Positions 1-61,499 of a stretch of 64,000 bases of DNA are shown here, in pieces. Source of the stretch: Nanoarchaeota archaeon. GTDB taxonomy: Archaea; EX4484-52; LFW-46. How positions within the stretch are numbered: position 1 is the stretch's first letter; every line of letters starts with the position of its first letter. The notes below the pieces were generated by a model, which worked only from the letters and a program-made list of their open reading frames with translations, was not told where the DNA came from and did not search any database. The stretch lies in assembly GCA_018897155.1 (NCBI GenBank), contig JAHILE010000048.1:9102-73101 (forward strand), written 5' to 3'. The translations under genes and the position numbers were made by a program.

Positions 1-3000
1 GCATCTCTTGTAAAGGGAAATGCTTCAAACATCACCATCAATGCATCTATTCCAGTAGGATATATTCCCGGAGTATATAACGGCGTGTTAAATGTGTCTT
101 CCGACACATCAAGTATAAAAGCAAACATCTCAGTAATTGTTCCTGCAAACCTTACGTGGAGGCATTCTCCGACATCAATAAAAATGGAAGTCGCGGCAGG
201 CACTAACGGAACATTCGGAATTGTGACGGTCTCAAACATAGGCAATCTTCCGGTTGTCTTGCAATCGCTGTCAACCAATACAACACTATTCACAGTAAAT
301 GCCAGCACAATAAACCTGCCGGTTGGAACTTATTCGACAGTGGCTGTAAACTACACTGCCCCGCTGGTAAGTGCAATTGAAAATTATATCGCTTATTTCA
401 GGACAGTCAATTCAACCGCAGTTCCGCAGAACCAGTCGACACTCCTAAATATCACTGTGCAGCCAATATATTTGTATATTGTATCGCCAACTACCGCTTC
501 TCCAAAAATAAATGTATCAAGCGGAAACACTGTAGAAACCACAATAAACCTCACCTATTCATTGCAGCCTTTGTATGAAAATGTGACCTGGGAGATCAAT
601 CTTACAAACGAAGGCTCGCTTGTAACCGTGAACACAACATACGCCAACTACTCAAACACAACAAAGCTCTGGACAATAAACTTTACAGCACCGGCAATAA
701 TGGAAGGCGCTGCACACACGCTTATTGCAAAGGCATTCTACTCCACAAAGAACATATCGGTTGAAGGCATTCAGAAAGATGCTATTGTGTATGTGGACTC
801 TGCAGCGCCTCTAATATCTCTTTCGGCGCCCACTGCAGCAAACCGCAACTCAATAGTGCCGATATATGTAAACATTACTGATTCCGGCGGCGTGAGAAAC
901 GCATTGCTTGAAATAACAGATCCAAGCAGCCTATTGCAGAGTGTTAATGCAACATTGATGGGTTCTTCCGGAAACTTGTATAGATTCAATTATAATTATA
1001 GCAATACATCACTCCTTGGAACATATAGAATTGTTGCAAAGGGCTATGACCTTTCAGGAAATATGAACACCACAAATACGACATTCGACATATATAATCC
1101 GGCTTACATAAGCGGATACCTGCTTGACATAGAAAGCCCGAACAGCACGGCACCAATTCCGGGCAATTTCAGGATGTATAAAAATGATACTGGCACGCTT
1201 TTGCACAGCTTTGCAACTAACAACATAACAGGATATTACTATCAAAGCGCATTTGTACGAATGTATGATGTTCTTTTAGACGCCCTAAATGTCAGCATGA
1301 AATTCAAGAACTTTAATATGCCGTCAGAAGGAATTACCGATCCCGTATCGCTTGGAAACATACCTTTGTCGCTCATTGGTTCGGGGCCGCTTAAGGCGGT
1401 TTATGTAACAAGCAAAATGAATGCGCAATATATGAATATAACATTCGACTATTCGCCATACATCGGAGTAAGCGCAAATGATGTGCAGGTTTATTATTGC
1501 GGCAACTGGACAAACCAGATTGGATGCACTGGAACGTGGTTCAGGCAAAACAGCTCTGTTGATACGCTCACAAGAACAGTAATGCTAAATACTCAGGCAT
1601 CTGCAGGAGCATATGCCCTATCGCAGTTTATCTGCGGAAACAAAATGTGCGAATCAATTTACGGAGAATCGAATGCAAACTGCCCGAAAGACTGCCCGAT
1701 TCCTGAAGGCCAGGAAATACCGCCCATAATAGGCGGCGGAAGCACTAGCGGAGGCGGTGGAGGAGGAGGAGGAGGAGGAGGCACTAGCGGAGGCGGCGGA
1801 AGCAGCGGCGGAGGCTCTGCAGGAGTTCCTGTCGCAACAATTAAACCGGATAACAGAACAACCACTGACAACGTGCCAATTGAAATAAAGTCAACCCTGC
1901 TTTACATAACGCTTGCTCCTGGAGAGCGGGAAATCCATTCAATAGAAATAAAGAACAACCTAAACGAAATAATAAATTCAAAATTAACTGTTGAAGGGCT
2001 TGTCTGGGAACTGATAAAAATTGAAAAAACTGATTTCGATTTAGGCCCAAAATCAACCGAAAACGTAAAGATAGAAGCATATGCGCTTCCATCAACACGG
2101 CCCGGAATATATACCGGAGATATTGTTGCAGTAACAGGAAATATGACATACAGGACGCCGATTACAATAAAGATTGAACTAAAGGAAGAGCCGCTGCTTG
2201 ACGTAATACTAAAAATGCTTTCAGACATTGTAAGGCCCGGAGACGATGCACAATTCCTTGTAACTATCAAAAACATGGGAGAAACTGCATCTGTAGAAGA
2301 CATAATAATGAATTATGTTGTGAAAAACCTCCAGGATGGAACTGTTCTGACAACTGATAAAGAAACTCTTGCAGTCAATCAGACGCTCACCTATACAAAG
2401 ACTATAAGAATACCGAATGGTACCGCAGAGGCGCGCTACGTAATTGATGCAAACGCAACTTATGCGAACGGAGTAAAATACGCCGGCTCTGCTGCGACCT
2501 TTGACGTAAGCATGCAGCCATGGCCAGTCATTATTCTGCGAAGGCTATTCACAAGCTGGCTGACGTATATAATATTACTAATAGTAATTCCGGGAATTTA
2601 TTTTGGAAGGCGCGCCTACAATGCATATAAGGACAAGAAAGCAAGAGATGCGCGATATATATTCCCGATGGACTACGCCAAGCTGCCGCAAAAAGGCGAT
2701 AAAAGCCTGCAGGTTGGAAAGATTGCAGAAACAGACATTAATTCATACCTTGATATCAAGAACCTGACAATGCATTCAATAGCAGCAGGGGGTACAGGTT
2801 CAGGAAAGAGCGTAACTGCAATGGTCACTGCAGAAGAACTTCTCAAGCGCGGAATACCTGTCGTAGTATTCGACCCGACAGCACAATGGTCCGGTTTCAT
2901 CAGGCCATGTAAAGACCCGCACATGATTGAACTTTACGCGAAATACGGCCTCAAGCCGGAGGATGCAAAGGCATTCAAAACAAATATAATAGTTGTCAAC

Positions 3001-3750
3001 AGCGCGAACAGCCTTACCGATGATGAAATAGACCTACGCAAATACATGAAACCCGGAGAAATCACAGTATTTATAATGAGCAAATTGCGCTCATCAGAAC
3101 TCGACGCGTTTGTCAGGCGCACTATCCAAAAAATATTCAGCATACAATGGCCTGAGGCAAATACGCTCAAAGTGCTTGTTGTCTACGACGAAATGCACAG
3201 GCTGCTTCCGAAGTACGGAGGCAAAGGCGGATATGTAGAACTTGAGAGAGGGTGCAGAGAATTCCGTAAATGGGGCATCGGCTTATTCTTGATATCACAA
3301 GTCCTCTCAGACTTCAAGGGTTCAATCAGGGCAAACATTGCAAACGAAATACAGCTGCGAACCAAGTACAATGGAGACATAAATCGTGTCAAGCAAAGAT
3401 ACGGAACAGACTACGCGCTTCGGGTTGTCAAGCTAACAGTTGGCGCAGGGCTCCTGCAGAACCCGGAATTCAATGAAGGAAAGCCGTGGTTCATACAGTT
3501 CAGGCCGCTGCTTCACGACACAGGCAGGCTGAGCGAAGAAGAGCTTACCACATATACGAACATAAAGCAGAATATCTTGAATATGGAAACCAAGATAGCG
3601 GCGCTAAAATCGCGAGGTATCGACACATATGATATAGAGCTTGAACTGAATATGGCGCGCGACAAAACAAAACAGGGAATGTTTAAGATGGCGGAGACCT
3701 ACATGGAATCAGTTAAAGCAAGGCTGAGTTCCATGGGTGGCGGAGCATAG
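1..3750 (+). CDS. Membrane-anchored HerA/FtsK-type ATPase with giant ectodomain (5' partial)
   Basis: The reading frame is open from base 1, so the true start lies upstream; a GTG at 85 is only the first in-window start codon. The outer part (about nt 1-1620) is made of Asn/Ser/Thr-rich beta-sandwich-like modules with many N-x-S/T sequons. A Cys cluster (about 1630-1700, C-G-N-x-x-C ... C-P-x-D-C) and a poly-Gly linker (about 1730-1820) follow, then two more Ig/CARDB-like modules. One transmembrane helix lies at about 2520-2620. The cytoplasmic part is a HerA-FtsK ATPase: Walker A GGTGSGKS at 2788-2811, Walker B ending VVYDE at about 3178-3192, and a C-terminal helical tail. This family moves DNA or protein through membranes. 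A single-pass anchor with so large an ectodomain is unusual, so the role (surface translocation or contact-dependent transfer) is inference. It heads an operon with the next two genes. Confidence 0.85.
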   Translation, partial: ASLVKGNASNITINASIPVGYIPGVYNGVLNVSSDTSSIKANISVIVPANLTWRHSPTSIKMEVAAGTNGTFGIVTVSNIGNLPVVLQSLSTNTTLFTVNASTINLPVGTYSTVAVNYTAPLVSAIENYIAYFRTVNSTAVPQNQSTLLNITVQPIYLYIVSPTTASPKINVSSGNTVETTINLTYSLQPLYENVTWEINLTNEGSLVTVNTTYANYSNTTKLWTINFTAPAIMEGAAHTLIAKAFYSTKNISVEGIQKDAIVYVDSAAPLISLSAPTAANRNSIVPIYVNITDSGGVRNALLEITDPSSLLQSVNATLMGSSGNLYRFNYNYSNTSLLGTYRIVAKGYDLSGNMNTTNTTFDIYNPAYISGYLLDIESPNSTAPIPGNFRMYKNDTGTLLHSFATNNITGYYYQSAFVRMYDVLLDALNVSMKFKNFNMPSEGITDPVSLGNIPLSLIGSGPLKAVYVTSKMNAQYMNITFDYSPYIGVSANDVQVYYCGNWTNQIGCTGTWFRQNSSVDTLTRTVMLNTQASAGAYALSQFICGNKMCESIYGESNANCPKDCPIPEGQEIPPIIGGGSTSGGGGGGGGGGGTSGGGGSSGGGSAGVPVATIKPDNRTTTDNVPIEIKSTLLYITLAPGEREIHSIEIKNNLNEIINSKLTVEGLVWELIKIEKTDFDLGPKSTENVKIEAYALPSTRPGIYTGDIVAVTGNMTYRTPITIKIELKEEPLLDVILKMLSDIVRPGDDAQFLVTIKNMGETASVEDIIMNYVVKNLQDGTVLTTDKETLAVNQTLTYTKTIRIPNGTAEARYVIDANATYANGVKYAGSAATFDVSMQPWPVIILRRLFTSWLTYIILLIVIPGIYFGRRAYNAYKDKKARDARYIFPMDYAKLPQKGDKSLQVGKIAETDINSYLDIKNLTMHSIAAGGTGSGKSVTAMVTAEELLKRGIPVVVFDPTAQWSGFIRPCKDPHMIELYAKYGLKPEDAKAFKTNIIVVNSANSLTDDEIDLRKYMKPGEITVFIMSKLRSSELDAFVRRTIQKIFSIQWPEANTLKVLVVYDEMHRLLPKYGGKGGYVELERGCREFRKWGIGLFLISQVLSDFKGSIRANIANEIQLRTKYNGDINRVKQRYGTDYALRVVKLTVGAGLLQNPEFNEGKPWFIQFRPLLHDTGRLSEEELTTYTNIKQNILNMETKIAALKSRGIDTYDIELELNMARDKTKQGMFKMAETYMESVKARLSSMGGGA

Positions 3751-3770
3751 AGTAAAAAGGGCGATAATAT

Positions 3771-3802
3771 CTTGAAAGCGTTTGCAAAAATGCGCTTTCA
3801 AG
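3771..3802 (+). terminator. Hairpin after the ATPase gene
   Basis: A perfect 10-bp stem, CTTGAAAGCG paired with CGCTTTCAAG around a 12-nt loop, is followed by ATTTTT. It sits in the 100-nt gap before the coiled-coil gene. It could be an attenuating terminator or an mRNA-processing hairpin inside the operon. Confidence 0.5.
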
Positions 3803-3850
3803 ATTTTTAGCCCAGATAGAATGGCAAAAAATTAATGGAGATGGCTAAAA

Positions 3851-6433
3851 ATGGCGGAAAAAAAGAGCAAAAAGACAAACGAACTTGACGAGATGAGCCT
3901 CGACGAGCTGATAGAAAGATGCAAGCAGATAAAAGAGCTTCTTGCGAACCTTGAGAACCAGTACAGATCTGCGGAAATTACTGAACAAAGCTACAAGCAG
4001 ACAAAGGACGCAAACACAAAAAAGCTCGGTGAAGTAAGAAAGCGCCTTGAAGACTGGGGAATTAAGGACGAAGATATTCCTGCGCCACTTTCCGCTGCGC
4101 AAAAGCCTGCCGCGAGCACTTCCGCCGCTCCAGCATCAGCACTTTCGCAGCCTCAAGCCTCCGCAACGCCAGCCGCTACAACACTATCGTCAGCAGCCCA
4201 AAAACCCGCACCGGTTCCGCCGCCGGTACAAGCGCCGGTTTTTACTCCGCCGATAGAAACACAAGAAACAAACGAATCTGCCCAAGAAACGCCGGTTGCC
4301 CCGCCAGCACCGAGCACTCCAATATCATTCACGCAAAAACTGAAACAACAATTTATGCCGTCTTCCCAAAGGTCGCCGGAAGATCCCGCATATATTTCGC
4401 AGACTGTGCAGCTTGAGCTCCAAAAATTCCAGGAAAAATTCAATGTGGATCTTGAGCGCATAAAGGCATCAATCGATGCTATTAAAGAGACACGCGCATC
4501 ATCTGAAGAAAGAATACATATGCTGACTGAAGGAATTGCCGAACTCAGGTCAAACGTATTTCAGCGCGAGGCAAATTTAAAAGAGCAGGAAATGAAGCTT
4601 ACTAAACTGAAGGAAATGGTTGATGACGTCGAGCCGCAAAAAATAAGCAAAGAATTCTCAAAACGCGACAAGACATCTTCGGACATTGAAGTCCGGCTTG
4701 AAAAGCTGGAAGTAAAAACAAACGACCTCATAAAGACAGTTAATGAAATAAATGCTTTGCTCAAAAGCATTGGAGGGCTTGAAAATGTGGCAGATGTAAA
4801 CCATGAAGTTACGAAAAAATTCGAAGAGATACGCGAAATAAACACCGCCACAGAAAGGCTGTCTTCAAAAGTCGAAAAGATATTCATAGATATAAACAAG
4901 CGGCTTGAAAAATTCAACATATACGAAGCCAGGCAGGACAATATAAGCGAAATTGTCAACGACATGATACGAAACTTCGACGCACTTTCGCTGAAGTTTG
5001 AATCCTATGCGGAAAAAAAGGATCTGACCACTACCAAAGAAGACATCACAGACATCCAAAAAAAAATGGAAGAGCTGAAAAAGACGCTGAAAAGGGTAGT
5101 GCCATTTGCAGAGGCGCAAGTTCCGGAAGAAATCCAGGCGCTTCAGACTGAGCGGGAAGATATCGAATCGCTTCTTTCCTCAATAGAATACGAACATGAA
5201 AAAAAGCAAATCACCGACGATGAATACGCATCAATAAGGGAAAAGAATGGCGTACGGCTCAAAGAAATAAAGCAGAAAATCGCAAACGCTGTGAAAAAAA
5301 TCGCGCCTGCCGATGAAGAAAAGGATGCTGCGTCAAATACGAAAAATCAGAACCCATCATTGGTTGATGCGATGTCAAAAGACATGGACGCAATCAAAAC
5401 TGCGGCAAAAAAGAATGCTGAAGAATCCAAAAAGAAAGATGAAGCTGCCAAAAAAGAAGCTGAAGAAGCAGCTGAAACCGAAAATGAAAAAAATGTTGAA
5501 GAAACAACTGATGAAGAAAATGATGAGTCCGACAAAGAAAACGAAGCTGAAAGCCCTGACGCAAAAGAGAAAAAAGAAACGCAGGGAAAAAAGCATTCAA
5601 ATGCAAAATCGGCTAATCCAAAAAGTTATGAAAATGCACCTGAAAAAACAGAGATAATTAATGAAGCGGGAAAAGAACCGCTGCCGGAAATAAAAAAAGA
5701 AATGATGGAACAAACAGTTGCAGAAGAAAATAAAGATGAAACGTTTGCGCAACATGTGCCCGTTCCCGCCGCCGATACAAAACATAAAGAAAAATGGCGC
5801 GCCAAATCCAAAAAGGCGAAACATAACAAACAGAAAATAGTTCGAAAGGCACGCGAAACAAAAGAGAAAAATGAACAAGTGGAGCGCGCAACGCGAATGT
5901 TTTTGCGCGCAAATGAAATTGAGCGTCCGAATGCTGTTCGCGCAAAAAAAGCAGCTTTAAAAAAGAAACTAAAGAAAAAAGTGGCGCCATCAAAACAAAA
6001 CAAAATGCATGCAAAAAGACATGCACATCATGCAGCCAAATCTACCGCGAAAAAAACAATAGCATCTTCGCGTGCAGTGAGGCTCGAAAATCGCGCAATT
6101 GCAAAAGAGAAAATAAAAACAGCCACAAATAACGCAGCCCAAACATCAAGAAAATCTCTTCGCTCATCCCACGGCCTGTTTGTTCCTGCAAAAGAGATTA
6201 CAGATATAAAAAGTGTTATATCAGCCGGCGCGCAGAATGCGCAAACGCCAAAAAAACAGGATATTTCGCCGCAGAAAAATGCCGAAGCTGCAAAAGAAAT
6301 AGCAAACGCGCCGGCAAAAAAAGGCGAAAATGAAACAAATCCACTGCTTGCAGAACTCACTGAATCGCTGAAGCAAGGGCTTATTTCAAAAGAGACTTAC
6401 GAAAATACAAAGAAGCTGCTAATGATGGGTTAG
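3851..6433 (+). CDS. Large cytoplasmic coiled-coil protein with basic tail
   Basis: This 860-residue protein has no signal peptide and no membrane helix. In order it shows an N-terminal helical hairpin (about 1-65), a Pro/Ala/Thr-rich stretch (about 75-165), a long coiled coil (about 170-430), a second helical hairpin containing KKQITDDEYASIREK (about 440-490), an acidic Lys/Glu region (about 500-640) and a strongly basic Lys/Ala/Arg tail (about 650-810). The last 30 residues form a SHOCT-like hairpin (LKQGLISKETYENTKKLL). The same short hairpin type ends the next gene's product. It lies between two membrane proteins with cytoplasmic helical domains. A scaffold linking them, perhaps also touching nucleic acid through its basic tail, is inference. 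I recognise no named family. Confidence 0.75.
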   Translation: MAEKKSKKTNELDEMSLDELIERCKQIKELLANLENQYRSAEITEQSYKQTKDANTKKLGEVRKRLEDWGIKDEDIPAPLSAAQKPAASTSAAPASALSQPQASATPAATTLSSAAQKPAPVPPPVQAPVFTPPIETQETNESAQETPVAPPAPSTPISFTQKLKQQFMPSSQRSPEDPAYISQTVQLELQKFQEKFNVDLERIKASIDAIKETRASSEERIHMLTEGIAELRSNVFQREANLKEQEMKLTKLKEMVDDVEPQKISKEFSKRDKTSSDIEVRLEKLEVKTNDLIKTVNEINALLKSIGGLENVADVNHEVTKKFEEIREINTATERLSSKVEKIFIDINKRLEKFNIYEARQDNISEIVNDMIRNFDALSLKFESYAEKKDLTTTKEDITDIQKKMEELKKTLKRVVPFAEAQVPEEIQALQTEREDIESLLSSIEYEHEKKQITDDEYASIREKNGVRLKEIKQKIANAVKKIAPADEEKDAASNTKNQNPSLVDAMSKDMDAIKTAAKKNAEESKKKDEAAKKEAEEAAETENEKNVEETTDEENDESDKENEAESPDAKEKKETQGKKHSNAKSANPKSYENAPEKTEIINEAGKEPLPEIKKEMMEQTVAEENKDETFAQHVPVPAADTKHKEKWRAKSKKAKHNKQKIVRKARETKEKNEQVERATRMFLRANEIERPNAVRAKKAALKKKLKKKVAPSKQNKMHAKRHAHHAAKSTAKKTIASSRAVRLENRAIAKEKIKTATNNAAQTSRKSLRSSHGLFVPAKEITDIKSVISAGAQNAQTPKKQDISPQKNAEAAKEIANAPAKKGENETNPLLAELTESLKQGLISKETYENTKKLLMMG

Positions 6434-6450
6434 ATACAAGATACAATTCA

Positions 6451-9400
6451 ATGGGATTCAAAATGAAACAAAGAGTTATTTTGTTTGCAATGATTGCAGC
6501 GATAGCTCTGCTTTTATCACCTCTACTTGTCAATATTGCCAATGCGCCGACAGACCCTTACTGGTTCGATACGTCGTGGCATTTCAGGATTGCGCTGGCA
6601 ATCAACAATACAGATTATGCGCGAGATAACTGGCCGATTGAACATGATATGAATTTCACCGCATTGATAACACAAACTGGAAAAAGCGGCACTTTCGATT
6701 ACAATTCCATACGCATTTACGCGCATAACTCAACCGGCGGCGTAATGCACCCGATGAAATACCAGTTCGACAACGCGTCGGACTCAAGTGCAGCATCAAA
6801 TGCCGCAGGAACTCTTGTATTCCTCTTGAATGGCACAACAGCGGCAAATGAAATCCGGTATTTCTACGTTTATTTCGACACAATTGAAAATGGCGCGAAA
6901 AGCCCGCCGTCATTTTCCACAAACCTCAACTATTCATGGGATGGCAAAGAAGCGCATGTGAATAACAGCATGCTGCGATGGAAAATAGATACGATGCGAA
7001 ATGAAAATACTTCTGGATTATATGATGCAAAAGGAAACTCAGCAACCATATTTACGCAGGCAACTTCAAACAGAACAATCGAATACATACAATATTCAAA
7101 CGGAACAAATAATTTTTCTTTTGATTTTAGGAACAATGCGACGTTTATTTCAGGACCTATAATGCTGAGGCTCGAACAAGCCGGAAATGAAATGCTTTGG
7201 AACAACCCCGACGCAATAACTGGAGCCGGATGGATGAAAAAGACGTACGTATTTTATGAAAATACAAAATGGCTTAAGATAATTCAAAACTTCACAAATA
7301 TCGGCGGCTCTTCCATAACAAGAAACTCAACAAACGGAGGCGCGCTTTCCGTGAATGAACTCATAGACAACAGCTTACTACCGCCTTTTGGAAACGAAAG
7401 CAATCCGATGTCCAGATACGGCGCTTCTGACGGCAGCAGAGGTGTCGGAATAATAAATGTGAATTCCAGCAGCAACGCGAATTACTCCGCAGTTTACGAT
7501 GCGGCTCTTGACAGGATAGGGATTAATCTTAACAGCACAACACTGGCTCCGCAGGAATCCATAATACAAACAACAGTAATGCAATTCGATGATGTCCAGT
7601 ACAGCGATGACCAAAACCTTCTTCCGTTAAGAAACCAGCTGCTTTACCCTCCAATAATTACGCAAGACAATCCGCAATACATAACATTTATGCTGGAATC
7701 AAAAACAAACTACACCATCCACAACAGAAACGAAAGCGTGCTGATTACTGGAAATACTACATTCGATCCGTACAACATCAGTTCATCAATGAATGCCACT
7801 CTTGATATGGGAACGGCGGATTCTGCGGACGATATAACAATAGTTTTGTATGACGACGGAAGTGCTGAACATGGCGATGCAACTGCATCAGACACTATAT
7901 TCTCCAACTACTTCAACTTATCCGAGGATAGCGTATTTGGAACATGGAATATCACCATAAACGCGTATGATATTTCAGACATTCTTCTGAACCAAAGCAT
8001 CACAGCATTCAATGTAACAAATGAATACAGTACAAGCATAAATATAAGCAATCCTGACGGGTTTGTCGACCGCATAATAAACACTACACTAAATGTGAAA
8101 AATAAAAGATACGACACGTTTATTCCGGGCGCAACGCTTAACTGCAGCTACAGCGGCTCCGGCGAGCTGACAAATATAACAGACTACGGCAATGGCACAT
8201 ACCTCTTGAATTTTACAGCCCCTTCAATAACCGGCTCATATCTTCTTAATTGCAGCGCGATAAAATTCAACAACACTGGATGGGCCGCCCAATGGTTCTA
8301 TACTGAAACCAGCGAGACAATGCTATTACTGAACATAACTCCGGAAAACCACACAACAAGCAATATAACGCGAGCAACAGGCAATTCATTTATAATTAAT
8401 CTTAATGCCACAGACATTGGAGGCGCAAATGCAAAATATACGAATATGACTCTTTCGCTGCCTCAAAACATCACTGCAAATGCAACAAACGCAAGCTGCG
8501 GAACTGTAATAATGGGAACCTCTTGCCTGAGGGATTTCAATATAACAATAGCCAACGGAACCTCGCCCGGAAACTATACACTAAATACAAGCGTGGTGTG
8601 GGAGAACCCGGACACTTCAAAAAATACAACAAATTCATCAGTTACCATATACGTCTTATCAAATCCTCAAATTAATATAACTCCAGCAAATATTTCCGGT
8701 AACGCTCCTGACGGGAAAACGGTTACCATAGGAACATTTACGGTATGGTCTATAGGAAATGACAACATCACAAACACTACGTTTAATGTGACCGGAATTC
8801 CGGACTTTTCAGTGTCTTTCAGCCCGCAAAACATATCCGGCCTTGCAGCCGGAAGCTCACAGCCGGTTTCAGTAAACGTGACTGTTCCATCAGATTATGC
8901 GCCGGGAAACTATACTGGAACAATAAATGCCAGCACAATAAACGATGGATGGAAAACAATAGAGCTTAATGTAGCCGTGCCTTCAACAACAAACCTATCG
9001 ATAAACATAACGCCTCAAAACTACACATCCCGAAACATATCTTATTCAAACAGCGAATCATTCAACATAACTATCAATACTAGTAACACGGGCGTAACCG
9101 GCGCAAAAGACGTAAACATAAGCCTATCGCTTCCGCAAAATCTCAGCGCAAATTCGACAATTGAAAACTGCGGCAACATCAGCACAAATTCATTCTGCAT
9201 AAATCAATTCAACATAACAATAAGCAATCAAACAGCTCCGGGAAATTATACATTCAACATAACGGCAACATGGAAAAATCCCGATTTGTCGATAAATTCA
9301 ACAACCACCAATATGACCGTTGCTGTGCTATCCAATCCACTATTAAATGTTTCAGAAGGCGGCATATCAACAATACTCTTTGACAATACGACAGCATATG

Positions 9401-12400
9401 CGGGCAATTTCACAACATACTCGCTTGGAAATGACAACCTGACAAACATCACGTTCAATGTTACCGGACTCTCGAACTTTACATTCACCTTTTTGCCGGC
9501 AAACATCTCAACTTTAGGAGTAAACAGCTCACAGCTTGTCTCTGTAAATGTTTCTGTTCCGTTCGCATATTCTCCAGGTAACTATACCGGAACAATAAAT
9601 ATGAGTTCGATTAATGACGGCTGGAAGGTTATTGAAATAAATGTAAGTGTCCTTATAAGACGCGAATGGAGCATTTCTCCGACACATTGCGAAAGGGCGG
9701 AAAATCCCGACACCGGAACAGTATGCTCTGTAGCCGTATCCAACACAGGAAACGCACCCATAAACTTTACTGTCAATCCTTCCGGAATAAATTATACTTC
9801 GGCAAATGAAACCAATTTCACAGTGGCTAAGAATTCAACACACTCGCTCGTATTTCTTTATAATGTCTCAAACATCACAAAGGATTTTTTCTATTCCTTT
9901 TATACCATTAACGCCACAGACGCGGATGCATCTCCGCAGTATAGCAACTTCAACATAACCTTAATACCCTATGTTATACCGTTGTTTTCAGTGAACGTCC
10001 TGCCGAACGAAACCGAGCAGAGAAAAAATGTCGAGATAATGGTAAATGTTACCGACCGCTCCACAACCGGAATAAACTGGACTCAAATGAATATAACGCT
10101 TCCAAACGGCACGCTTGAAACGCATAACCTGACGCGTATAGACGTAAACGGAACTTTCAGCCAATGGTATTTTAATTATTCAGGAATTATGAATATCTCC
10201 AATCTGACAAACATGAGCGGCAATTTATCAAACATCACATTAAATTACACGGGAAGCACAGCATTGCGCGGCACCTATAATATATCCATCACATCACAGG
10301 ATAATACTGGAGTTGCTGGAGATGTAAATGGAAGCTTCAAAATACATGCAAAAATGCTTATTGGATTCCTTCCGGGATCAACAAAATATTATCAGGGCTC
10401 AACAGGTTCTCTTTATTATGCTGCAACTGATTCTGAGGATAATGCGCTTAGCGGAGCAAATGTAACTATAAAGATAAAAGACTCTTCAGGAAACTTGACT
10501 TATCTCCAAACATTCTCAACAGGATCAAGCGGACAAATACTTCCAACCCCGACATTCCTTTTGCCAAATGATGCTAAAGTCGGGCAATACAACATTTCTG
10601 CATACACAACATATTATGATGCGATTGCAGACAAAATATTAAATGCAACTAACAATGCATCATTCAGCCTGCAATCCGGTTCATCTGGCGGTGGAGGCGG
10701 ACTTGCCGCATATGTGGACACTGCTGTTGTCTGGTACCCTGACAATGTGATGCGCTTTGAAATGTGGTTCTCATATGCAGGAAATGTGACTGATCCAGAC
10801 AATATGACTTTGTTTGTGTATGATCCTGCGAGCAACCTGTATTTTAACATAAGCCTTACAAACGCAAACAGATCATCCGCAGGATTGTATAATTACAGGT
10901 ATGCTATGCCGATTAATACTGCTTCAGGATATTACTTCGCCATCCTCACAGCATCAAAAGAAGGCTTTGTAAGCCAGATGGTAAAGCCTTTCAGAGTTGC
11001 AAAAGGCGGCCCCTATGACGTAAAGCTGACAGTATTGCCGCCTCTTGAAGTGTCGCGGCAAGACTACCTTAGCTTTGAAGTGCTTGTGGAAAACATGGGA
11101 GAAGTCACGCAGGACGTTTATATCGATTATTGGACGTCCTATGAAAACAATACATATTATTATAGTGGAGAAGCCATACTGACGCCCGTGGGCGTGAATA
11201 TAACAATAATAAGAACGGCATACATCTTTTCCAATCAGCCTCTTGGGATGAACACGCTAAACTTAAAAGTGACATACGACAGCGTACAGGCACCGATACT
11301 TTTGAGCGCCAATTTTGAAGTAGTTGATGATTATATAAACATACCTCCTCCTCCGCCACAACCGCCTCCGCCAGACTATGACTATGAAAGTGGAGGGGGT
11401 GGTGGGGGAGTTATTGAAAGAATAATTTATTTGCCGCCTGAAGAACTTCCGGAAACCGATGCGGCTGGAATTGGCAAAAGATCAAGCATAGAAATAGAGA
11501 GCTATAACAAAGAAATAAACATAGTGCGAGGATGGACATCGCTTGAAAGCGTAAAAGTGAAAAATACAGGCAACACAACACTGAAAAACATAACGCTTTT
11601 GTTATCCGGAATACCTTCTTCATGGTTCAAAATAACTCCAAAATATTATGAAAGCCTAACTTCCGGAAACAGCACAATATTTTTGATAGAATTCAAAATA
11701 CCAAATAATGCCGAGTCTGGAACATACAACATCGTTTTCACAGCATCATCTATTGAAAGAACAACTGAAAAAGTCGGCCGCCTGATAATTTTCACATCGA
11801 TTGAAGAACTCGTAAATCAAGAGATTATAAACCTTAAAATAGATGTAGAAAAGCTTGAGGAAGACACAGACTATTCCGAACGGCTTGGAAGAAATATTTC
11901 GCAAATCCGGGATATTATAGCATCTGCGCGAGCCCAAATAAAACTAGCTGAAGACAATGCAAAAAAGAAGGTATTTGATGACGCGCTCCTTAACACGCAA
12001 ACAGCGTCAGGCCTGATAAAGCGCGGAAAACGCCTGCTTGAGTCCCTTGTAACCGAAGAGCCATCAGTCTCGCAGAAACCAACACGAAATGTCTGGCTTA
12101 TGGGGCTTGAAGCGCTTTTAATAATTATTTTAATAGCTGCAATAGCGCTATGGACGATACGGTCGCGCGGGAAGCTCAAATGGGAAAACATAAAGGCATA
12201 CCTCAAGAAGAAAACCGAAAAGAGCGCGACAAATGAAGAATTGAAGAAAGAGCTTGTTGCAGAAAAGGAAAAAATAGCCCGAATGACAAAACTCCTTGAA
12301 AGCGAGCTTAAAGAAGGCATAATAACGCAGAACGCATATAATGAGCTGAAGAAGAGAAATGATGAAAAGCGAGCTAAGATAGAGCAGCAAATCAAAAAGA

Positions 12401-12405
12401 TTTAA
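6451..12405 (+). CDS. Giant single-pass surface protein, DUF2341 and Ig-like repeats
   Basis: This is a 1984-residue type I surface protein. A signal peptide (about 1-32, ending NIANA) is followed by a DUF2341-like domain (about 36-170, WFDTSWHFRI and later YFDTIENG). Many beta-sandwich modules rich in N-x-S/T sequons follow, including a two-module unit present twice in tandem (8323-9660). A Pro-rich then Gly-rich linker sits at about 1630-1650, then another beta domain, a juxtamembrane coiled coil (about 1790-1850), one membrane helix (about 1890-1912) and a cytoplasmic helical tail with a SHOCT-like hairpin. The ATG at 6463 may be the real start. It follows the coiled-coil gene by 17 nt. 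The ectodomain order resembles that of the ATPase gene at 1-3750, so the two may act as a pair. It is probably a glycosylated adhesin or sensor. Confidence 0.85.
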   Translation: MGFKMKQRVILFAMIAAIALLLSPLLVNIANAPTDPYWFDTSWHFRIALAINNTDYARDNWPIEHDMNFTALITQTGKSGTFDYNSIRIYAHNSTGGVMHPMKYQFDNASDSSAASNAAGTLVFLLNGTTAANEIRYFYVYFDTIENGAKSPPSFSTNLNYSWDGKEAHVNNSMLRWKIDTMRNENTSGLYDAKGNSATIFTQATSNRTIEYIQYSNGTNNFSFDFRNNATFISGPIMLRLEQAGNEMLWNNPDAITGAGWMKKTYVFYENTKWLKIIQNFTNIGGSSITRNSTNGGALSVNELIDNSLLPPFGNESNPMSRYGASDGSRGVGIINVNSSSNANYSAVYDAALDRIGINLNSTTLAPQESIIQTTVMQFDDVQYSDDQNLLPLRNQLLYPPIITQDNPQYITFMLESKTNYTIHNRNESVLITGNTTFDPYNISSSMNATLDMGTADSADDITIVLYDDGSAEHGDATASDTIFSNYFNLSEDSVFGTWNITINAYDISDILLNQSITAFNVTNEYSTSINISNPDGFVDRIINTTLNVKNKRYDTFIPGATLNCSYSGSGELTNITDYGNGTYLLNFTAPSITGSYLLNCSAIKFNNTGWAAQWFYTETSETMLLLNITPENHTTSNITRATGNSFIINLNATDIGGANAKYTNMTLSLPQNITANATNASCGTVIMGTSCLRDFNITIANGTSPGNYTLNTSVVWENPDTSKNTTNSSVTIYVLSNPQINITPANISGNAPDGKTVTIGTFTVWSIGNDNITNTTFNVTGIPDFSVSFSPQNISGLAAGSSQPVSVNVTVPSDYAPGNYTGTINASTINDGWKTIELNVAVPSTTNLSINITPQNYTSRNISYSNSESFNITINTSNTGVTGAKDVNISLSLPQNLSANSTIENCGNISTNSFCINQFNITISNQTAPGNYTFNITATWKNPDLSINSTTTNMTVAVLSNPLLNVSEGGISTILFDNTTAYAGNFTTYSLGNDNLTNITFNVTGLSNFTFTFLPANISTLGVNSSQLVSVNVSVPFAYSPGNYTGTINMSSINDGWKVIEINVSVLIRREWSISPTHCERAENPDTGTVCSVAVSNTGNAPINFTVNPSGINYTSANETNFTVAKNSTHSLVFLYNVSNITKDFFYSFYTINATDADASPQYSNFNITLIPYVIPLFSVNVLPNETEQRKNVEIMVNVTDRSTTGINWTQMNITLPNGTLETHNLTRIDVNGTFSQWYFNYSGIMNISNLTNMSGNLSNITLNYTGSTALRGTYNISITSQDNTGVAGDVNGSFKIHAKMLIGFLPGSTKYYQGSTGSLYYAATDSEDNALSGANVTIKIKDSSGNLTYLQTFSTGSSGQILPTPTFLLPNDAKVGQYNISAYTTYYDAIADKILNATNNASFSLQSGSSGGGGGLAAYVDTAVVWYPDNVMRFEMWFSYAGNVTDPDNMTLFVYDPASNLYFNISLTNANRSSAGLYNYRYAMPINTASGYYFAILTASKEGFVSQMVKPFRVAKGGPYDVKLTVLPPLEVSRQDYLSFEVLVENMGEVTQDVYIDYWTSYENNTYYYSGEAILTPVGVNITIIRTAYIFSNQPLGMNTLNLKVTYDSVQAPILLSANFEVVDDYINIPPPPPQPPPPDYDYESGGGGGGVIERIIYLPPEELPETDAAGIGKRSSIEIESYNKEINIVRGWTSLESVKVKNTGNTTLKNITLLLSGIPSSWFKITPKYYESLTSGNSTIFLIEFKIPNNAESGTYNIVFTASSIERTTEKVGRLIIFTSIEELVNQEIINLKIDVEKLEEDTDYSERLGRNISQIRDIIASARAQIKLAEDNAKKKVFDDALLNTQTASGLIKRGKRLLESLVTEEPSVSQKPTRNVWLMGLEALLIIILIAAIALWTIRSRGKLKWENIKAYLKKKTEKSATNEELKKELVAEKEKIARMTKLLESELKEGIITQNAYNELKKRNDEKRAKIEQQIKKI
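8323..9660 (+). repeat. Tandem duplication of a two-domain unit in the surface protein
   Basis: Two successive units of about 670 nt (223 codons) encode the same pair of modules. The first module carries N-I-T-P-x-N and SLPQN in both copies. The second carries NYTGTIN and INDGWK in both copies. The copies start near 8323 and 8992. They differ at many positions, so the duplication is old. Confidence 0.75.
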
Positions 12406-12432: not shown

Positions 12433-12738
12433 TTATTTGCTCAAAATTCTCTTCTTTTCAAAAACAATCGCTATAAATACAAGGCCCATAAACGCAGTTA
12501 TCACAAGAATGCTTGCGGTATAGCTGACAATATCATTTATTATGTGATATGCACTTCCTTCTTTTGTGGTGCATGTCGTTTCACCGCCCTGCATAAAAAA
12601 AGAGTACTTTATTTCCGCCGCACCTCCGAAACTTTCGCAGATTTCCGCATGTATCGATTCGTGAAAGTATGTCTGTATTGAATTTACAAAAAGAAACATA
12701 ATTATGAGAACAATTATGTCGAAAATATAGTGCTTCAT
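12433..12738 (-). CDS. Small membrane protein with HExxH motif
   Basis: This 101-residue protein has an N-terminal membrane helix (about 5-20), then H26-E-S-I-H30, an HExxH zinc-protease motif, in the context TYFHESIHAE. Two cysteines lie in CTTKE, and a second hydrophobic helix (about 72-92) follows. HExxH next to a membrane helix recalls M50/site-2 and DUF3267-like peptidases, but the protein is far shorter than those. It may be a minimal membrane metallopeptidase or a diverged remnant. It converges with the surface operon and leaves 27 nt between the stop codons. Confidence 0.55.
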   Translation of the reverse strand: MKHYIFDIIVLIIMFLFVNSIQTYFHESIHAEICESFGGAAEIKYSFFMQGGETTCTTKEGSAYHIINDIVSYTASILVITAFMGLVFIAIVFEKKRILSK

Positions 12739-60569: not shown

Positions 60570-61499
60570 ATGCTAAAGAAGATAATCGTTCTGTTCTCAA
60601 TGATTGTACTTTCTGCTTTAGCATGGTTTGCAAACTTAACTTATCCAAATGAAAACTTGGTGAAACTATTTTACAGTTTTGCAACAATAACTTTAATTTA
60701 TTCTATTTTCAACATATCTTTGGAATTTGTTATTGACAAAAATGTCAAAGAATCAAGGACCCGGTTTTCTTCCAGAAAGGCAACCTCAATAGTTTCTTTA
60801 TTGATTATTTTGGCCGTTCTCATAGGCATCTGGATAAAAGACCCTCAGTCTCTTTTAGTGGCTTACGGCCTTATCGGCGCAGGGCTCGCAATATCGCTGC
60901 AGGATTTTTTCAAGAATTTTGTGGGCGGCATAATGATAATTACAAATAAGATTTACAAGATAGGCGACAGAATAGAAATTAATTCAAAATTCGGAGATGT
61001 TATGGATATCGGCGTAATGTACACAACTCTGCTTGAGATAAAGGAGTGGGTTGGCGGAGATCAGGCAACGGGACGCTTGACGATAATTCCAAACAGCACG
61101 GTTTTATCCAATCCAGTCAATAACTACACAAAAGACCATAATTTTATATGGGACGAAATAACTGTGCCCATAACTTATGATAGCGACTGGAAAACTGCGC
61201 ATAAAAACATCTTAGAACTTGTGGCCGAAGAAACAAAGCAAATAACTGAACAGGCAAACAGAGAAATTTTAAAGCTGGAAGAAAAATATTACCTGGAAAA
61301 AAGGCCTACAGAACCCGCAATATTCATTAAATTAACGGACAACTGGATAAGCTTCAACATACGCTATATTTCTGAGACAAGAAATCGGCGAATTCTGCAT
61401 AACAAGCTTTCGCATCTTATTTTGGAAATGATAGAGAAAAACAAAAAAATCAAGATTGCCTCAGAGACCATAGACATAGTCGGCTTCCCGAAAAAATGA
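60570..61499 (+). CDS. MscS-family mechanosensitive channel
   Basis: The ATG at 60570 is preferred over a GTG at 60552 because of the TATA spacing. The roughly 309-residue protein has four membrane helices. The last is the pore helix GLIGAGLAISLQDFFKNFVGG, followed by the MscS beta domain (IYKIGDRIEINSKFGDVMDIG). The cytoplasmic alpha/beta domain extends to residue 309. The channel opens under membrane tension and releases solutes on osmotic downshock. Confidence 0.9.
   Translation: MLKKIIVLFSMIVLSALAWFANLTYPNENLVKLFYSFATITLIYSIFNISLEFVIDKNVKESRTRFSSRKATSIVSLLIILAVLIGIWIKDPQSLLVAYGLIGAGLAISLQDFFKNFVGGIMIITNKIYKIGDRIEINSKFGDVMDIGVMYTTLLEIKEWVGGDQATGRLTIIPNSTVLSNPVNNYTKDHNFIWDEITVPITYDSDWKTAHKNILELVAEETKQITEQANREILKLEEKYYLEKRPTEPAIFIKLTDNWISFNIRYISETRNRRILHNKLSHLILEMIEKNKKIKIASETIDIVGFPKK

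Follow-up and report, generated by a model that had tools for sequence, protein, structure and literature searches.

A SPEARE-type giant surface protein with a HerA-clade motor and a conserved coiled-coil neighbour in a DPANN archaeon

DPANN archaea are tiny and mostly host-dependent, and the exchange of material between them and their hosts is an open question. The SPEARE proteins of nanohaloarchaea, giant surface proteins that end in a cytosolic ATPase, are leading candidates, and a single gene has been the basis for guesses at their function. This study was concerned with a giant of this type and its neighbouring genes in a 64,000-nucleotide stretch of a Nanoarchaeota archaeon (contig JAHILE010000048.1; G000:C48:9102-73101), which is referred to as the window. 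The source genome (G000) is a 1.43 Mb metagenome-assembled genome in 62 contigs.

Published giants of this kind in nanohaloarchaea include NAR1_1133, SVXNc_0300 (9,409 amino acids) and BNXNv_0298 (PMC6642349, PMC10266531). SPEARE proteins were named by Hamm 2019, who detected the protein of Ca. Nha. antarcticus by mass spectrometry-based proteomics, with the ectodomain and the membrane/cytosolic peptides in different gel fractions. The same report listed relatives among the Woesearchaeota, Aenigmarchaeota, Micrarchaeota and Altiarchaeales and used at least one laminin-G domain as a SPEARE criterion (PMC6642349). Reva 2023 reinterpreted the cytosolic domain as resembling VirB4/TraG and put forward the idea of a host-contact secretion straw (PMC10266531). 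Reva 2024 reported cytoplasmic bridges of up to 11 nm in the SVXNc co-culture and host DNA that carried the methylation motif of the symbiont (PMC11001535). Two other described systems are relevant. CedB and CedD are membrane-anchored HerA-clade ATPases needed for the import of DNA and not for its export (PMC11868833). Coiled-coil proteins beside type IV pilus loci of DPANN archaea, which reportedly resemble reovirus sigma-1, are implicated in cell contact (PMC11291902).

The window's giant is a SPEARE-type protein by architecture, with a giant ectodomain, a C-terminal membrane helix and a cytosolic ATPase. It shares with the SPEARE proteins a Sec signal, thousands of residues of immunoglobulin (Ig)-like beads, one C-terminal membrane helix and a conserved cytosolic FtsK-HerA-type ATPase with a helical C-terminus, and both are reported from the same DPANN groups. 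An earlier note, made from the sequence of the window, knew of no described system with this layout; since the layout matches the published SPEARE architecture (PMC6642349, PMC10266531), that claim does not hold. The central giant was already known in kind, and it is a real, conserved and large candidate for host interaction. What is new is the conserved module around the giant, a hairpin shared within it, the assignment of the motor to HerA with hallmarks of type IV secretion missing, a compact form and a quantified spread. The SPEARE reports name, among the neighbouring genes, a second ATPase and a proteasome activator and assign the ATPase to VirB4/TraG, whereas here the neighbours are a coiled-coil partner and a second giant and the ATPase falls in the HerA branch. 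A description of this partner, or of the second giant with the shared hairpin, was not found in the available text of the open-licence literature, and an earlier one is possible. The features of the first gene are as follows.

1..3750, forward strand: open frame, C-terminal 1,249 amino acids of a surface protein of at least 4,282 amino acids ending in a HerA-clade ATPase
1..2526, forward strand: predicted extracellular region, sequon-rich, with Ig/NEW3-like beads, a Gly/Ser linker and membrane-proximal beta domains
2527..2583, forward strand: single transmembrane helix, from hydropathy (helix 11-41 of the AlphaFold2 model)
2680..3747, forward strand: HerA-clade ATPase core and C-terminal helical tail (model helices 337-404), from the AlphaFold2 model
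2788..2811, forward strand: Walker A, GGTGSGKS, key residues invariant in 22 aligned relatives
2869..2889, forward strand: family signature FDPTAQW, invariant in the 22-row alignment A1
3172..3192, forward strand: Walker B, VLVVYDE, with D221/E222 invariant in A1
3253..3300, forward strand: CREFRKWG (candidate arginine finger) and LISQ sensor motif, with R244, R247, S257 and Q258 invariant

The ATPase frame starts upstream of base 1 and is open to the start of the contig, with its 5' end beyond the contig. A NPCBM_assoc/NEW3 domain was detected in the full 4,282-amino-acid frame; no laminin-G domain was found at E <=0.01 in these 4,282 amino acids, the N-terminus being missing from the contig. 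The ectodomain contains 237 NxS/T sequons, compared with 84 +/- 8 in shuffled sequences, and the cytosolic part contains 1, compared with 1.7 expected. This excess outside and its absence inside agree with the proposed membrane topology. The earlier note had described one membrane helix, a large sequon-rich ectodomain, a Walker A motif, whose coordinates were exact, and a Walker B motif, which is now placed at 3172-3192; these features are all present.

The joining of adhesin and ATPase could in principle be an artefact of assembly or read-through, which the earlier note had named as a danger to its reading, and the fragmentation into 62 contigs and the position of the ATPase gene at a contig end would fit such an error. 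However, a congener (G030, an LFW-46 contig) carries a collinear frame of 4,435 amino acids, aligned over 4,282, with protein identities of 40-69% across most bins of the ectodomain and of 81-88% within the ATPase. The dN/dS values for this pair, about 0.11-0.125 for the ectodomain and 0.064 for the ATPase, are rough because dS is saturated, and they indicate purifying selection. In addition, complete open reading frames (ORFs) of 10,910 (G015) and 12,128 (G025) amino acids with signal-peptide-like N-termini are found in relatives, the longest open frame in the ATPase family has 12,373 amino acids, and the joined frame recurs in dozens of independent genomes, one of them on a contig of more than 1.9 Mb. 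For these reasons, the artefact was rejected, and we regard it as extremely improbable.

The motor is a membrane-anchored HerA-clade ATPase, in the HerA branch of the FtsK-HerA superfamily, as judged from sequence, family and fold. Its central domain matched the Pfam DUF87/HerA model at 42.1 bits (cut-off 23.2), and the best solved relative by profile was S. solfataricus HerA (4d2i, E 5e-13). The AlphaFold2 model of the ATPase part (mean confidence, pLDDT, 89.5) also had 4d2i as its top match, with a VIA Z of 26 over 253 residues and a root-mean-square deviation of 2.9; the VIA Z was 23 for VirB4, 20 for TrwB and 18 for FtsK. Profile search and predicted structure thus both place HerA closest, which bears out the HerA-type motor of the earlier note. 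The protein has the characters of the FtsK-HerA superfamily, namely Walker A and B motifs with DE, a sensor Q and the superfamily ATPase fold. FDPTAQW, YMKPGE, VYDEVHRLL, CREFRKWG and LISQ are strongly conserved in A1, and CREFRKWG and LISQ are candidates for the finger and sensor roles by analogy with the superfamily.

None of the curated NCBIfam models for HerA, CedD, VirB4 or TraD reached its cut-off. The HerA repair and defence equivalog models gave about 44 bits against cut-offs of 800-970, and the CedD model, the sole NCBIfam model matching all 22 aligned members, gave 40-43 bits, locally, against a cut-off of 600. HerA itself, in HerA-NurA and in anti-phage systems, has the closest fold and profile but is soluble, has a HAS-barrel N-terminus and works with nuclease, SIR2 or DUF4297 partners. 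The giant has a membrane helix and no room for a HAS barrel; none was matched in it, and about 20 residues separate the helix from the first strand. The motor is not the repair enzyme, because the genome holds a separate HAS-barrel HerA elsewhere (L002). A HerA repair or defence enzyme was therefore rejected, the PADLOC matches being local only. Like CedB and CedD of the crenarchaeal Ced system, the motor is a membrane-anchored archaeal HerA-clade ATPase, but Ced has no giant ectodomain and has VirB4-like N-domain pieces, the VirB6-like CedA and CedA1 pili (PMC11868833).

The likeness to VirB4 and VirD4 (TrwB) of type IV secretion extends to the superfamily fold only. The profile match to the VirB4 structure 4ag5 was not significant (E 0.22). 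The VirB4 N-terminal domain (PF03135) is absent from the protein, and its best match genome-wide (E 0.07) was under the cut-off. VirB6/TrbL (PF04610) had no match in the genome, although this model has little power to detect divergent VirB6 homologues of archaea. Membership in a type IV secretion system was rejected on these grounds, and the published VirB4/TraG and type IV label is unsupported for this protein because of its HerA kinship and the missing VirB6 and VirB4 N-domain. A mobile-element origin was also rejected, as viral contigs held no relative and phages gave one local AAA match; plasmid DUF87-type proteins, mostly haloarchaeal, reached only 23-31% identity.

The next gene on the same strand encodes, as the earlier note had it, a soluble coiled-coil protein.

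3851..6433, forward strand: soluble coiled-coil protein of 860 amino acids
3926..4057, forward strand: hairpin module, copy 1 (amino acids 26-69)
4415..5149, forward strand: conserved coiled-coil core with the motif ER....E.IGELR.M...PEK (IAELR in the window), from alignment A2
5159..5281, forward strand: hairpin module, copy 2 (amino acids 437-477)
6344..6421, forward strand: C-terminal SHOCT-like half hairpin (amino acids 832-857), weak (hairpin model E 1.3)

When the core (amino acids 189-433) was searched against 348 ORFs of 40 loci, there were 36 matches, each encoded one to three genes behind an ATPase. With a profile built from 19 cores, the partner was recovered in the corresponding position in 18 of 20 further loci that had played no part in building it. 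In total, 54 of 61 loci, spread over about five DPANN phyla, have the partner within +1 to +3 genes of the ATPase, or 53 of 60 when L004 and G030, which are the same contig, are counted once; two of the loci lacking it are at contig ends. The synteny survey thus identifies the coiled-coil protein as a real partner, as the earlier note had supposed. In two Micrarchaeota loci, L109 and L111, the ATPase has no coiled-coil partner nearby. The core is single copy in the window's genome even at E <=10, and the shared motif argues against mere coiled-coil composition. Among the 34 genomes of the phylum, 23 have both genes, 1 the ATPase only, 3 the partner only and 7 neither (Fisher p 1.6e-4, uncorrected for relatedness or genome incompleteness). 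Searches of PDB and Pfam with the core gave generic coiled-coil matches only, and the SHOCT domain was below the Pfam cut-off (SHOCT_2 8.6 bits against 24, E 2.8). The pilus-locus coiled coils, compared by description only, are linked to pilus genes, whereas this one is linked to the giant ATPase (PMC11291902).

The third gene encodes the single-pass surface protein of 1,984 residues that the earlier note had recognised, with a signal-peptide-like helix (amino acids 9-27), NEW3 and MG2 Ig-like domains, one C-terminal membrane helix (amino acids 1881-1899) and a short cytosolic tail.

6451..12405, forward strand: second giant surface protein, 1,984 amino acids (NPCBM_assoc E 1.6e-33, MG2 4.8e-16)
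12292..12402, forward strand: hairpin of its cytosolic tail, a module common to the coiled-coil protein (hidden Markov model E 1e-6)

Its orthologues occur in at least 14 other loci, mostly with 1,910-2,100 amino acids where complete, and usually just downstream, some being on the opposite strand or a few genes away. A hidden Markov model of the hairpin, trained on coiled-coil proteins only and run on 567 ORFs, matched further coiled-coil copies, 12 second-giant tails and one other small charged neighbour. E values in the tails ranged from 3.5e-10 (L117, the best) to 0.13, and the best shuffled match had 0.3. Since the second giant has no cytosolic part other than this tail, the simplest reading is that it may dock onto or co-assemble with the coiled-coil partner. 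Convergent to this gene, at 12433-12738 on the reverse strand, is a 101-amino-acid two-helix membrane protein with the sequence HESIH (HExxH) and weak DUF3267/M50B similarity (E 0.004/0.024), kept there in G018, G019 (as HESID) and G020. It is possibly a mini membrane protease, and it is of interest because the ectodomain and the cytosolic portion of SPEARE had been recovered from separate gel fractions. In several lineages a ParA/MinD-like gene (ISGKGGVGKTT) is also found close to the module or to the second giant, at L007:18781-19605, L118:10550-11329 and G025:C8 (about 60763-61470).

The three genes also adjoin one another, with order and strand conserved, in other genera and families, so they are neighbours as the earlier note required. 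A single transcript that includes gene 1 is not assured in the window, because the 100-bp gap between the ATPase and coiled-coil genes holds a hairpin and a T run.

3768..3809, forward strand: stem-loop followed by a T run, terminator- or attenuator-like, from folding (dG -17.7 kcal/mol, z -4.2, equalled by 0 of 200 shuffles)

In many relatives and lineages, the end of the ATPase gene and the start of the one after it share 4-8 bp.

In searches with A1, the ATPase family turned up in 24 of the 34 genomes in the window's phylum, including 7 of its 7 high-quality ones, where a relative in the window's order (L005/G010) carries the name Candidatus Nanohalarchaeota. It was also found in 53 of 145 genomes of the phylum of an Aenigmatarchaeota record, 66 of 371 of that of a Woesearchaeota record, 6 of 196 of that of a Micrarchaeota record and 1 of 23 of another archaeal phylum. 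Many Woesearchaeotal members have a compact form of about 1,200-1,400 amino acids, consisting of an N-terminal helix, a conserved ectodomain of about 570 amino acids, a helix and the ATPase, usually with a separate two-helix surface protein upstream. This form, of which the available parts of the SPEARE reports give no description, could be expressed in the laboratory.

The reading we put forward is a SPEARE-type, contact-dependent, motor-driven envelope machine for transfer between symbiont and host, with the coiled coil as adaptor, and we judge its chances to be evenly balanced. The giant would be exported via Sec, its thousands of residues of glycosylated Ig-like beads projecting outward to bind or tether a partner cell. 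One helix would cross the membrane, and the ATPase domains inside would form a presumably hexameric ring that spends ATP on carrying a macromolecule, possibly DNA or protein, through the envelope where the cells touch. The coiled-coil protein would be a dedicated cytosolic adaptor which, through the hairpin common to the second giant's tail, may couple the motor to the second giant, or feed and gate cargo. Domain order, conserved motifs, purifying selection, constant neighbours, the shared hairpin and the lack of the type IV hallmarks searched for are observed, whereas the hexamer, translocation, contact dependence and binding of the adaptor to motor and tail are part of the proposal. In its favour are the HerA-branch motor distinct from the repair enzyme, the selected frame and complete giant ORFs, the recurrent partner and the second giant with its hairpin, together with the published protein detection, transfer proposal, bridges and methylated host DNA for the same architecture. 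The transmembrane machine for contact-dependent transfer in the earlier note is a sensible idea, which other authors have also suggested for proteins built in this way; the transfer itself we infer. Several points weigh against this reading. No channel-forming multi-helix protein is constant in the module, and the second giant is absent or not adjacent in many loci and may therefore be accessory. The terminator-like hairpin parts genes 1 and 2 in the window. The modelled short-form ectodomain, of low global confidence (pTM 0.42) and with generic Ig/MG bead matches only, looks like ordinary Ig-like beads and not a pore. The window's giant is known here from sequence and predicted structure, and its SPEARE identity was set by architecture and reported taxon range.

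DPANN archaea often lack nucleotide synthesis, which would suit a DNA-uptake machine, in which the motor, like CedB/CedD in Sulfolobales, brings in host or environmental DNA as a source of nucleotides or for recombination. All 22 aligned members match a single NCBIfam model in common, CedD, and CedB/CedD are required for DNA import (PMC11868833), but the match is local and far below its cut-off (about 43 bits against 600), the module has no nuclease or processing enzyme, and the genome has no VirB6/TrbL-type channel by the VirB6/TrbL Pfam model, CedA itself not having been searched. We consider DNA uptake unlikely. The secretion of effectors or proteins into the host, the straw that Reva et al. 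proposed for SVXNc_0300, would agree with the symbiont-type methylation and bridges of about 11 nm in the SVXNc co-culture (PMC11001535) and with VirB4 and TrwB being relatives by fold (Z 20-23). However, that proposal rested on VirB4 kinship, while the core here is nearer HerA (E 0.22 for 4ag5); no VirB4 N-domain reaches the cut-off in the genome and no effector gene is linked, so that we hold it to be similarly doubtful. A motor without cargo is a third alternative, in which ATP hydrolysis clusters, pulls or remodels the giant adhesins via the coiled-coil scaffold, serving attachment or membrane deformation with nothing translocated. The only partner that is conserved resembles a scaffold, being a coiled coil and not a channel, the shared hairpin ties it to the second adhesin's tail and the ectodomains are beads, all of which favour this explanation, but known FtsK-HerA members are mostly translocases and the catalytic and sensor residues are invariant; it, too, seems improbable to us.

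In its widest form, a DPANN-wide, non-type-IV contact-transfer machine with the motor fused to a giant tether, a coiled-coil adaptor and a second giant plugged in via the hairpin, the proposal is a tentative one that we would sooner doubt than accept. If this wide form is real, the three parts would make up an envelope translocase class of their own, at the core of DPANN symbiosis. The conserved partner and candidate docking hairpin nonetheless turn the SPEARE giant into a defined module with testable interactions, and the module data show why the type IV secretion reading is a poor fit and extend the giant across much of DPANN.

A tree of 63 ATPases has two deep clades, each mixing several phyla; the compact forms cluster within one and the window's ATPase is in the other. 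A 3.5-kb contig labelled Heimdallarchaeota (L006) falls deep inside the DPANN ATPases and is probably misbinned. Tandem ATPase copies, one longer and one shorter, occur in G025:C8, G009:C157 and L013 and recall the second ATPase reported beside SVXNc_0300. A recurrence of the ATPase C-terminal helices in small Woesearchaeotal neighbours was unsupported (best E 0.05, compared with a shuffled best of 0.31). Lastly, DUF5752 repeats lie behind a compact-form Woesearchaeotal ATPase at L018:4496-8470 and appear weakly in the next gene, L018:8463-9215.

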